The notes under the pieces: model-generated
Databases searched by the model: none
The model's input: only the letters and a program-made list of their open reading frames with translations
What the model was told of the DNA's origin: nothing
Shown: positions 2,781-25,048 of the stretch, in pieces
How positions within the stretch are numbered: the first letter of the stretch is position 1
Layout: every line of letters begins with the position of its first letter
Program-made: the position numbers and the translations under genes
Origin: a virus
Direction: 5' to 3' (one strand)
Length of the DNA: 25,048 bases
IMG/VR virus record: IMGVR_UViG_3300031227_000393
Location: 1 to 25,048 of that record

Positions 2781-3257
2781 TTAACTAGCTCCAAATGTGG
2801 CAGTCCAGGTTATTACTAATGAATCCGCAGCACCTTTATTGATTACTGCAAAGTCGGCATACAGCATCAGAGTGGCATCATCATCAAGCCTCAAAACACC
2901 AGCTTCAGTTATTGCTCCTGTGCCATCAGCAGCTGCCCATGTGCAGACATAGACAACATCGTTATCAGCACCAGCAGCCCCTTGAGTAGTTGAGTCTAAG
3001 GCATTCCGGTCAAGGTTAGTTGCCATCGATGTGGAAGCTGAAGTCTGACCTGACCCTGTGCCTACTGCCATAAAGCCTATAGCAGCATCAGTTGAATCAG
3101 CCATCTGGTCGGCTACTTGAGCATCCATCAACTCCGTAACGGTATTGTGGATTATGCGCTCTTCTTTGAGTTCTCCATCGGGCCCGAATAACTTGGCGTG
3201 GAATAATCCTTTGATTCCCAGTTTGCTATATAGTTCTTGATTCTTTTCCTGTAACAT
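2781..3257 (-). CDS. Phage structural protein (tail/virion, unknown)
   Basis: 158 residues; ATG at 3257 with GGAGG 6 nt upstream, inside the end of the overlapping small gene at 3226-3381. The N-terminus has an LGIK...H..L.GPDGELKEER segment followed by IIHNTVTEL. The remainder is Ala/Thr/Gly/Asp-rich with ITEAGVLRL and VITWTATFG strands. This layout (HNTVT start, then 'EAG' strand near the end) is common in small tailed-phage structural proteins of uncharacterised role. There are no transmembrane or catalytic motifs. It is probably a virion component. Confidence 0.8.
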   Translation of the reverse strand: MLQEKNQELYSKLGIKGLFHAKLFGPDGELKEERIIHNTVTELMDAQVADQMADSTDAAIGFMAVGTGSGQTSASTSMATNLDRNALDSTTQGAAGADNDVVYVCTWAAADGTGAITEAGVLRLDDDATLMLYADFAVINKGAADSLVITWTATFGAS

Positions 3258-3600: not shown

Positions 3601-4380
3601 TTAACTGGCCCACGGCCAGGTAGCAGTAGGTGTAATCGGATTGGTTATTTCCCTTGACCTTGTGACTACTATAGATACATCGCAAGTATCGGCATTGACC
3701 GTCTCGCTCATTAGCCTTACCCATAGTTTAGCGTTTGCTGGAATATGCTCACCCAATAATTCAAGGTCTGCATAAAAATTCTTAACGGGAGTGCCTATAA
3801 CCTTAAACCGCTGCTCACCTGCAATCTGAGCGGTAACGGGGTCTGTGCCATCAACTAAGCTATATCCGAACTGGATTATATAAGTTGCCGCTGCCCCAGA
3901 CTGTTCAATCATGACTTTTAAGAGTTGATAAGAAAAATCAATAGTGTTAATCGGCACCATCTGAGTCCATAATCCGAATGTGTCGGCGGCTGCTGCTGCT
4001 GCAACTTGAATAACAGAGCTAGGTACTTGTGGATATACTCTTGTCCTGGCATGAGTCTGGTGATAATCAAGAGCCAGATTAGATAATAGGTCGTCAATAT
4101 CACTTGGTAGGTTAGCGGCTGCAAGTTCATCAAGGTAGACCGCCCGTGCTGCTGTATAGTTCGCCAATGCTGTGGCTAAAGCCGCCGTCCATACCGCCGC
4201 TAACGCAGCATCGTCTGTGCCGCGCTCTACCGCATAACTAGCCGCTAGTAAGGCTAAATCAGTGCCTCTCATCGCATCGCCATCTAAGCCAGCCACATCA
4301 GCCGCTATAGTGGTTGTGTCAGTAGCTATACCGAGAACACTTGCTGCCAACCGCCTTAATGTTCCAATTAAATCTATCAT
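3601..4380 (-). CDS. Alanine-rich structural protein
   Basis: 259 residues. Its ATG overlaps the stop of the LamG-like gene by one base (TAATG), implying translational coupling. The first ~110 residues are strongly alanine-rich and helical (coiled-coil-like, LAASVLGIATDTTTIAADVAG then repeated AALA). The C-terminal ~140 residues are beta-rich with an AAATYIIQFGYS strand and a conserved-looking SETVNADTCDVSIVVTR segment. A helical stalk plus beta head fits a virion fibre or decoration protein; I recognise no named family. Confidence 0.8.
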   Translation of the reverse strand: MIDLIGTLRRLAASVLGIATDTTTIAADVAGLDGDAMRGTDLALLAASYAVERGTDDAALAAVWTAALATALANYTAARAVYLDELAAANLPSDIDDLLSNLALDYHQTHARTRVYPQVPSSVIQVAAAAAADTFGLWTQMVPINTIDFSYQLLKVMIEQSGAAATYIIQFGYSLVDGTDPVTAQIAGEQRFKVIGTPVKNFYADLELLGEHIPANAKLWVRLMSETVNADTCDVSIVVTRSREITNPITPTATWPWAS

Positions 4381-11048: not shown

Positions 11049-11065
11049 ATCATCCTCCTGTAAAT

Positions 11066-11100
11066 AAAAAAAGAGCCGCAAGCCTTTTTACAGCCTGCGG
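11066..11100 (-). terminator. Intrinsic terminator in leader of the protease gene
   Basis: On the minus strand, a nine-base-pair stem (11092-11100 with 11076-11084; two G-T wobbles) closes a seven-base loop and is followed by CTC and TTTTTTTATTT. The next 20 nt contain the AGGAGG and ATG of the protease gene. It would end transcripts coming from the terminase-MuF operon unless antiterminated. See findings. Confidence 0.8.
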
Positions 11101-11219
11101 TTCCTCCGTCAGTCTATTATTTAATTGTTTAAACTACTGGGCGTGTCGGGGATTCACGCATTTACTCTTCCGAGTTGTAATAAACCCACTTATACTACCA
11201 GCAGTATAGAATATTCCTT
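11101..11219 (-). other. Leader between DUF2292-like gene and terminator
   Basis: About 120 bp with no convincing gene. It holds an imperfect inverted repeat (TATACT/AGTATA, 6-nt loop) at 11192-11209 and a possible 10-codon ORF (ATGCGTGAA...) with a weak GGAAGAG site. I see no strong promoter here. Confidence 0.4.
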
Positions 11220-18127: not shown

Positions 18128-18350
18128 CTATATCCCCACGCCCTCGCATTCTGGGCTTCATCCACTCCACCACTTCCTTTATGCCTGCCTTGAATGAGAT
18201 TTCAAATATCTTCTCAGTTACCTTACATATATCTGGAAGGGGACGCTTTTTATCATCTACACACAGAGAGAACTCAGTCCCAAAGTCATTTACTATTATC
18301 CCTATCTGGAGTAATTCTTGTTTGTGTTTTTCTATATCTTTAGCTTCCAT
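18048..18350 (-). CDS. Hypothetical protein
   Basis: 100 residues; GGAGGTG six bases before the ATG. Charged: MEAKDIEKHKQELLQIGI, then CVDDKKRPLPDICKV, a helix KEVVEWMKPRM and a C-terminal ESEFQQLKEWKHL. The KEVVEWM helix resembles one seen in small phage proteins of early regions, with no known function. Overlaps the following gene in another frame, which is normal in this compressed region. Confidence 0.75.
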   Translation of the reverse strand: MEAKDIEKHKQELLQIGIIVNDFGTEFSLCVDDKKRPLPDICKVTEKIFEISFKAGIKEVVEWMKPRMRGRGDIDEYDTEYWITFTESEFQQLKEWKHLE

Positions 18351-23806: not shown

Positions 23807-23937
23807 CGTCTCTCCTTTTTCCCCCACAGTTTCCTTTCCACCAACCAGGGTATCCCTACTATCACGATAAGAGCAGGGGACACTCCTATCAGATGAACGA
23901 AAACTCCCCACAGTCGCTCAAGTATTATCTGGGGCAT
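23803..23937 (-). CDS. 44-residue membrane protein
   Basis: ATG 23937 lies inside the end of the MazG-like gene. MPQIILERLWGVFVHLIGV, then ALIVIVGIPWLVERKLWGKKERR: one or two hydrophobic segments followed by a basic tail, so likely a membrane protein with cytoplasmic C-terminus. No obvious ribosome site, so translation probably depends on the upstream gene. Its stop is coupled to the 28-residue peptide. Confidence 0.6.
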   Translation of the reverse strand: MPQIILERLWGVFVHLIGVSPALIVIVGIPWLVERKLWGKKERR

Positions 23938-24163
23938 TACAAACATCAAAAATAAGTCTCATCGCCATAGCACCTACTTGGATTGCTTCGTGCCTCATTT
24001 TAGTTTTATCGTGGTGCTTCTTGCGGATTTCGTCTTCTAGCTCTAGGTATTCCTCCCTAAGAACTCCCCAACCCTCATGGGCATTATGAAACGCCCCGAA
24101 TTCTCTTGAAGCATCCTCATATTCTCTAACCATCATCTGGGCTATTTCAGGTATATTCATCAT
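23918..24163 (-). CDS. MazG-like protein
   Basis: 81 residues (or 80 from the second ATG at 24160, better spaced from AAAGGAGG). Sequence pattern: REFGAFHNAHEGWGVLREEYLELEDEIRKK then MRHEAIQVGAMAMRLIFDV (shown in parts: EGWGVLREEYLELEDEI; MRHEAIQVGAMAMRLIFD). The EExxE-like and ExxQ..A motifs are those of small MazG/NTP-pyrophosphohydrolase-like proteins, which in phages often alter nucleotide or (p)ppGpp pools. It is directly downstream of element A. Confidence 0.8.
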   Translation of the reverse strand: MMNIPEIAQMMVREYEDASREFGAFHNAHEGWGVLREEYLELEDEIRKKHHDKTKMRHEAIQVGAMAMRLIFDVCNAPDNT

Positions 24164-24176
24164 TCCTCCTTTACTC

Positions 24177-24349
24177 TAGGATGGGGGCTACTAGGCAAAA
24201 CAGACTTCCCGCATACCGTGATATACAGGGTGGCTTTTCACCCCCACCTATTGCCGAGCCTAGTAGATAGCATTATGCCCAATTTGGATTACTCCGCAGA
24301 GCATCTACTCCTAAGAGACCATCGTCTAGGCTCTCCCCTACCAGCTAGT
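24177..24349 (-). repeat. Structured repeat element A
   Basis: Non-coding, between the MazG-like and HNH genes, and in the MazG leader. It shares with element B an identical 14-mer (TAGGATGGGGGCTA, 24177-24190), an identical 15-mer (CCCCTACCAGCTAGT, 24335-24349) and an 11-mer (CCCCACCTATT, 24242-24252). It also has a nine-pair helix CTACTAGGC/GCCTAGTAG (24188-24196 with 24258-24266) and an inner hairpin GGGTG/CACCC at 24229-24244. Compared with B it has an 82-nt insertion. See findings. Confidence 0.7.
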
Positions 24350-24383
24350 GCAGGGTTTATTTCCACTACACATTCTCCCCACC

Positions 24384-24749
24384 CTAAGTCACCTTTTGGG
24401 TAGCTGATTTTGTAAATTGTCCTTTCTCGTTGCGCACTTTATTTGTCATTCTTCCATATTTAGCAGCATCATAGCGACCTTTAGATATTGCGTCTTGTAT
24501 ATTGTCTTTTTGTGTCCCTAGAAATAGATGGTCTAAACGGATACAGGCTCTATTGTCGCACTCATGGAGAACTTGCATCCCAACAGATATATCTCCGTAA
24601 GATAGCGACCAAGCAAGCCTATGAGCACGGACTAGCTTTCCCTCATACCAAATTAAGCCATAACCATCTTGCTTAGCCCCATTCCAAACTAAACACCCTA
24701 GATTGTCAAATGTGGCTTTTGCTAATAATCGTTCTGTTGCTGTTCTCAT
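24384..24749 (-). CDS. HNH endonuclease
   Basis: 121 residues; ATG at 24749 with AAAGG a few bases upstream and own promoter. HNH_3-type motif order: LGCLVWNGAKQDGYG, VRAHRLAWSLSYG (H43), then LHECDNRACIRLDHLFLGT (H62, C64, C69, H74) and KDNIQDAISKGR. Such small phage HNH proteins are homing endonucleases or nicking enzymes that spread themselves. It lies between repeat elements A and B. The last codons overlap the GGGTAGCTG part of the repeat pattern. Confidence 0.9.
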   Translation of the reverse strand: MRTATERLLAKATFDNLGCLVWNGAKQDGYGLIWYEGKLVRAHRLAWSLSYGDISVGMQVLHECDNRACIRLDHLFLGTQKDNIQDAISKGRYDAAKYGRMTNKVRNEKGQFTKSATQKVT

Positions 24750-24773
24750 TTACCTTTCACCCCTTTCATCTAT

Positions 24774-24802
24774 ATCTTACCATAGACAAAAGGTTTTGTC
24801 AA
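24774..24802 (-). promoter_or_regulatory. Promoter of second HNH gene
   Basis: Minus-strand TTGACA at 24797-24802, 17-bp spacer, TAAGAT at 24774-24779; start near 24767, 18 nt before the ATG. The -35 box abuts the outer end of element B. Confidence 0.8.
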
Positions 24803-24803
24803 G

Positions 24804-25007
24804 TAGCTGGTAGGATGGGGGCTATTCCATTAGGCTGACCCTTACGGGTTATCCTGATTCAGCTAGGTTATTTGCGTGTTAGCTATTCGCCACACAATAT
24901 ACCTATGAGGTCGTAACCCTCATGCCCCACCTATTTCCCCTACCAGCTAGTTGATAACCAAACGCCTCCAACTGAGGCGATTTTGCCCACTTATGGGGTA
25001 GCTGGTA
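24804..25007 (-). repeat. Structured repeat element B
   Basis: Non-coding, upstream of the HNH promoter. Shares the same 14-mer (24811-24824), 15-mer (24937-24951) and 11-mer (24925-24935) as element A. Segment 24939-24949 can pair either with 24804-24814 (11 bp) or with 24999-25007 (9 bp), which are mutually exclusive. It also holds hairpins ATGAGG/CCTCAT (24905-24923), ACCC-GNRA-like loop-GGGT at 24838-24849 and CGCCTC/GAGGCG at 24963-24979. See findings. Confidence 0.7.
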
Positions 25008-25048
25008 AGGGCTTGCTGGCTCGGTGGCTTCCCCTTGTATAACATCGA
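25008..25048. other. Window end, no gene seen
   Basis: The last 40 bases carry no supported feature; the sequence continues past the window and may contain the start of another transcript serving element B. Confidence 0.3.

Follow-up and report, generated by a model that had tools for sequence, protein, structure and literature searches.

A small HNH endonuclease gene near the right end of the window—that is, the whole stretch of DNA analyzed here, a linear IMG/VR record of 25,048 bases (IMGVR_UViG_3300031227_000393) representing a fragment of a tailed phage—is flanked by two copies of a duplicated, word-conserved element, hereafter A and B. On the − strand, both copies carry four collinear identical words, i.e., CAGCTACCC (word 4), ACTAGCTGGTAGGGGA (word 3), AATAGGTGGGG (word 2) and TAGCCCCCATCCTA (word 1; Table 1). 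This chain amounts to 50 identical bases out of 50, whereas none of 400 pairs of dinucleotide shuffles yielded more than 29, and the longest common word measures 16 nt, as against 12 nt in dinucleotide shuffles. The presence of two elements sharing words in the same order and on the same strand at either side of the HNH gene, as described in an earlier note on this DNA, is thus far above chance. The repeat is genuine, and its extent exceeds that given in the note: the three words given there as 14, 15 and 11 nt long measure 14, 16 and 11 nt, and they are joined by a fourth word of 9 nt, which extends A to about position 24406 and into the HNH reading frame, the final 23 nt of which it overlaps. 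Most probably, A and B represent a regulatory or junction sequence that is repeated locally. Our preferred reading, put forward tentatively, is that they are paralogous copies of a hairpin-rich gene-junction element that flanks a free-standing HNH gene and would exert its effect on the mRNA in cis.

Table 1. Positions of the repeat elements, their shared words and the neighboring features in the window.
Feature	Position	Strand	Remarks
81-aa protein	23918..24163	−	function not assigned; directly after element A
Element A	24177..24406	−	230 nt; four words and unrelated spacers; between the HNH and 81-aa genes
Word 1, copy A	24177..24190	−	14 nt; stops a few nt short of the 81-aa gene's ribosome-binding site
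Word 2, copy A	24242..24252	−	11 nt
Hairpin insert, A only	24253..24333	−	81 nt, between words 3 and 2; closed by GAGCCTAG/CTAGGCTC; z −3.1
Word 3, copy A	24334..24349	−	16 nt
HNH endonuclease	24384..24749	−	121 aa; HNH_3 / phrog_1872; PF13392, 49 bits against a cut-off of 24.8
Word 4, copy A	24398..24406	−	9 nt; within the 3′ end of the HNH frame
Sigma-70-like promoter for HNH	24774..24802	−	TTGACA-17-TAAGAT with TG extension (extended −10); pattern match 10/12
Inverted repeat enclosing the B core	24796..24957		19 nt, 89%; one arm over the −35 box of the HNH promoter
Element B	24811..25004	−	194 nt; same four words, other spacers; upstream of HNH
Word 1, copy B	24811..24824	−	14 nt
Three-hairpin block of B	24825..24924	−	100 nt, between words 2 and 1; z −2.7; + strand −3.2
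Probable 3′ end of upstream gene (X)	24903..25048	−	47 codons, open at the contig end; overlaps words 4, 3 and 2 of B
Word 2, copy B	24925..24935	−	11 nt
Word 3, copy B	24936..24951	−	16 nt
Word 4, copy B	24996..25004	−	9 nt

Between the words, the two copies, which lie about 600 nt apart, have diverged completely. Words 4 and 3 are separated by 48 nt in A and 44 nt in B, words 3 and 2 by 81 nt in A as against none in B, and words 2 and 1 by 51 nt in A and 100 nt in B; the inserts previously put at 82 nt for A and about 50 nt for B are to be corrected on this basis. The spacers retain no residual similarity between A and B, as 464 and 405 of 500 shuffles align equally well in the comparisons made. 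In B, inverted copies of CTACCAGCTA flank word 3 on both sides. No third full copy of the element was found in the window. The contig stops 37–44 bases past the last repeat word (window 25012–25048), for which a further repeat copy that broke the assembly could conceivably be the cause.

The recognizable genes of the window are all located on the − strand—a terminase, a portal, head genes, a PAPS-reductase-like gene and the small HNH gene—and are ordered leftward, with the closest terminases among phage records belonging to Bacteroides phages (approximately 40% identity). HNH_3 is the only Pfam domain of the HNH protein, next to a sub-threshold zf-His_Me_endon match. Judging from its sequence, the gene has the appearance of an ordinary free-standing phage HNH gene: it encodes a phage homing-type HNH domain and probably lies between genes instead of within an intron or intein, with its own promoter-like site and start codon and with no intron match, the upstream gene being cut by the contig end, which leaves slight room for an unusual intron. 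The promoter-like site follows directly after B and reads into the HNH gene, and matches to this pattern are about equally frequent in shuffles. The C-terminal helix-turn-helix-like segment carried by most aligned homologues is missing from the protein; the segment may have been truncated at the junction with A, but some homologues likewise have differing ends. Elsewhere in the window, 39 bp (18165–18203) show 95% identity to positions 928–966 of locus L171 (contig G007), which is otherwise hardly related.

Folding analysis distinguished the two copies. When B was folded alone (161 nt), its z-scores relative to shuffles were −4.3 (− strand) and −6.4 (+ strand), and, in a window scan, a 160-nt stretch over B (+ strand) attained −5.2 vs. 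−3.0 for the lowest among 150 other stretches. The core of A alone (183 nt) folded no better than shuffles (z of −1.0 and −0.4 for the − and + strands), and the stretches over A were not conspicuous in the same scan. Three of the five spacer blocks folded better than shuffles on the − strand, the other two being unremarkable; the B spacer between words 4 and 3 had a z-score of −3.0 on that strand. Of the structure previously ascribed to both copies, strong folding is borne out for B but not for the A core, although the 81-nt insert of A folds well by itself. The strongest fold in the whole window (z −5.7) was located at 481–640 on the − strand, within a long repetitive gene (203–2494) with direct repeats of 38–54 nt. 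In addition, an intergenic stretch at 11060–11200 (− strand), ahead of a 669-aa gene, combines CTGCTGG...CCAGTAG arms with a terminator-like hairpin followed by a T run—a possible small RNA or leader.

Word 4 is complementary to word 3, and word 2 to word 1, so that one near-optimal layout is open to both copies. In this predicted common layout, a 4:3 helix closes around small hairpins and is followed by a 2:1 helix around further hairpins; imposing the latter places A 4.4 kcal/mol and B 1.2 kcal/mol above the optimum. The degree to which the words complement each other exceeds expectation only modestly, being matched by 134 of 5,000 shuffled word pairs for 2:1 and by 791 of 5,000 for 4:3, and, because the pairing words are the same in these two copies, the common layout provides no covariation evidence. 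In B, word 3 has an alternative partner in the sequence that follows word 1, as part of the 19-nt inverted repeat, which allows for alternative folds. In the predicted fold, the ribosome-binding site after A is unpaired.

The label of non-coding given to both copies holds for most of A, where the HNH frame ends, but probably not for the right part of B. The open frame there (gene X) has the codon score of a typical gene of this phage—a score reached by 68% of true-gene stretches and by 4% of open wrong frames—which indicates that this part of B probably codes for a gene end and that B is not purely non-coding. No relatives of this probable tail were found in phages, Pfam or PHROGs.

The proposal of a cis-acting junction element draws on the collinear identity of the words, the unrelated and mostly stable spacers, the common two-helix layout, the leftward gene order and the promoter after B, together with the unpaired ribosome-binding site in A, an HNH family typical of free-standing phage genes and the analogy with T4-like phages, in which free-standing homing endonuclease genes are known to be preceded by structures (PMC2988022). 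The ancestral junction would have had the order gene X–element–81-aa gene; an HNH cassette with its own promoter would have arrived with a junction copy, or duplicated the existing one, leaving an element on each side, and later hairpin insertion or replacement would have altered the spacers, whereas selection or conversion would have preserved the words. At the gene boundary, a cis-acting effect on leftward transcripts is envisaged, whereby a stable structure would uncouple or process the mRNA; in B, this structure would shield the HNH promoter from read-through, and, in A, it would keep the next ribosome-binding site accessible. Against this proposal stand the only modestly unusual complementarity of the words, the unremarkable A core and the overlap of B with a probable coding end, as well as a functional constraint that is deduced from identity alone. 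Moreover, the searches returned no syntenic relative, and no relative shows an empty junction, so that the order of events is a suggestion. The closest parallel comprises the free-standing HNH homing endonucleases of T4- and T7-like phages (mob, gp2.8/gp7.7-type), which have RNA structures near their start—single, short hairpins located mostly over or beside the ribosome-binding site (PMC2988022). The locus studied here resembles them in having a small gene between genes, with its own promoter and adjoining stable structures, and differs in that the same word-conserved element occurs on both sides. On balance, a cis-acting junction role is the most economical functional reading.

Neutral patchwork following duplication is not much less likely than the cis-acting junction role, although we regard it as the less probable of the two: A and B could be remnants of a local duplication, reshuffled by patchwork recombination around a homing endonuclease, with the words being functionless parts not yet replaced. 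Such an origin would account for the abrupt edges of the words, the intervening sequence being free of scattered similarity, and for the absence of element copies elsewhere in the searches made. Beside word 2, a GGC/GGA difference before AATAGGTGGGG is silent in the gene X frame, suggesting that the end of gene X may survive in A as a dead copy. However, the preservation of all word bases beside wholly different spacers is unusual for neutral decay, and most spacers are hairpins separated by words that are pairwise complementary.

It is rather unlikely that A and B represent a structured RNA not yet described, acting in trans or in the manner of a riboswitch and present in two copies that combine a conserved core with variable arms. 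The conserved strands closing two helices, the variation of the arms and the folding of B far beyond its shuffles would fit such an RNA, but the overlap of B with probable coding sequence, the at least equally good folding of its + strand and the identity of the pairing words in both copies, which leaves no room for covariation, argue against it, and no second genome emerged from any search. No other copy was found in IMG/VR, in 84,980 prokaryote genomes, in phage and plasmid records or among the relatives of the neighboring genes, collections that may omit the nearest records of the window. Exact matches to word 1 (52 stretches) and word 3 (84 stretches) in IMG/VR were never accompanied by the other words, and the patterns word 3..word 2 (nine stretches) and word 2..word 1 (13 stretches) occurred in all cases without the rest of the element. 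The six matches of word 3 in the 84,980 genomes were judged to be chance; a relaxed three-word pattern had no match in 1.69 Mb of loci, and the records of PAPS-reductase, AAA-protein and 81-aa-protein relatives contained no such element, whether near these genes or farther away. In Shigella phages, 24 nt of A are matched (E 0.8) by the end of a small coding gene. The locus L186, which shares GGTTATTTGCGTGT and GCCCCCATCCTACCA with B, looked promising but was treated as a chance or unproven likeness; its phage has its own dispersed palindromes with a TTACTC..GAGTAA center, which the window lacks. As an observation in its own right, contig G009 (43,920 bases), from a different phage, contains about ten dispersed palindromes around TTATTTGCGTGTATTACTC..GAGTAA (15 pattern matches vs. 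none in a reversed control), including positions 3077–3120, 3614–3657 and 5720–5757 of L186; the first palindrome of L186, with arms GGATGGGGG/CCCCCATCC, has 14 nt in common with a hairpin of B. No Rfam family matched at its gathering score, the only matches being chance ones (E > 1). The suggestion of a structured element family thus keeps its conserved words, its changing and mostly paired inserts and its pairwise complementarity, while having no other member in the collections searched, no repeated linkage to HNH genes among the homologues and no Rfam counterpart.

Known RNA-associated systems were also compared. HEARO and IscB omega RNAs likewise place a structured sequence next to an HNH gene, and were rejected given the lack of an Rfam match and an HNH protein of 121 aa with no other Pfam domain and no split RuvC-HNH. 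Group I introns with HNH genes share an HNH ORF that overlaps structured sequence; no match that would show their conserved catalytic core was obtained up to E 10, and the copies are direct repeats, not complementary parts of a single fold. An HNH protein beside repeated structured sequence in phages is also a feature of TIGR-Tas systems with HNH (TasH; PMC12045711), but the two copies found here differ from an array and hold no 8–12-nt spacer units; the HNH protein has no Nop domain, and no long tandem array with short dual spacers is present.

A mobile cassette, in which the folded direct repeats would be recombination or insertion ends (attC- or single-strand-transposon-like) and the HNH gene cargo or driver, seems improbable. 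Direct repeats in the same orientation surround a single gene, one strand of B folds more strongly than the other, and a 10–13-nt word in B occurs in both direct and inverted copies. Integron attC sites carry the R′ core consensus GTTRRRY at their end, yet this motif is absent from both strands of 24164–25048. Like attC sites, A and B are direct repeats between small genes, with short conserved boxes, variable folded middles and strand-biased folding (PMC2727003), but they enclose one gene only, no integrase, recombinase or transposase was recognized among the scanned window genes, and, at 230 and 194 nt, both exceed the 57–142 nt of attC sites (PMC2727003). The repeated HNH linkage named as support in the earlier note was likewise not seen: the flanks of eight HNH homologues contain no such repeats, with shared words not above shuffles, and no empty site is known. 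More speculative still, and quite improbable, A and B could be the ends of an undescribed phage gene-cassette system, their folded repeats of invariant words and free arms allowing a small gene, in this case HNH, to be captured and moved between gene junctions. The new RNA class and the HNH-linked mobile unit considered in the earlier note are, on these data, neither supported nor excluded. Finally, the words are very improbable as a duplicated HNH recognition site, for, despite the position of the HNH gene between the copies, two intact sites in the enzyme's own genome would be self-cut and are not expected, homing being known to split the target or to cut a neighboring allele (PMC2988022).

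Each known family tested fails a defining feature, the HNH gene itself excepted. The evidence backs a word-conserved, hairpin-rich duplicated junction element beside an ordinary HNH gene, rather than a family, covariation or a rule of HNH linkage; the mode of action of the element would be that of a structured gene boundary, and none of the known families tested accommodates it. At present, it is a two-copy oddity on one incomplete contig from which no generalization is possible. If such elements travel with HNH genes or act on the mRNA of their neighbors, they would illustrate the way in which selfish endonuclease genes can establish themselves in tightly packed phage operons with no harm to adjacent genes.
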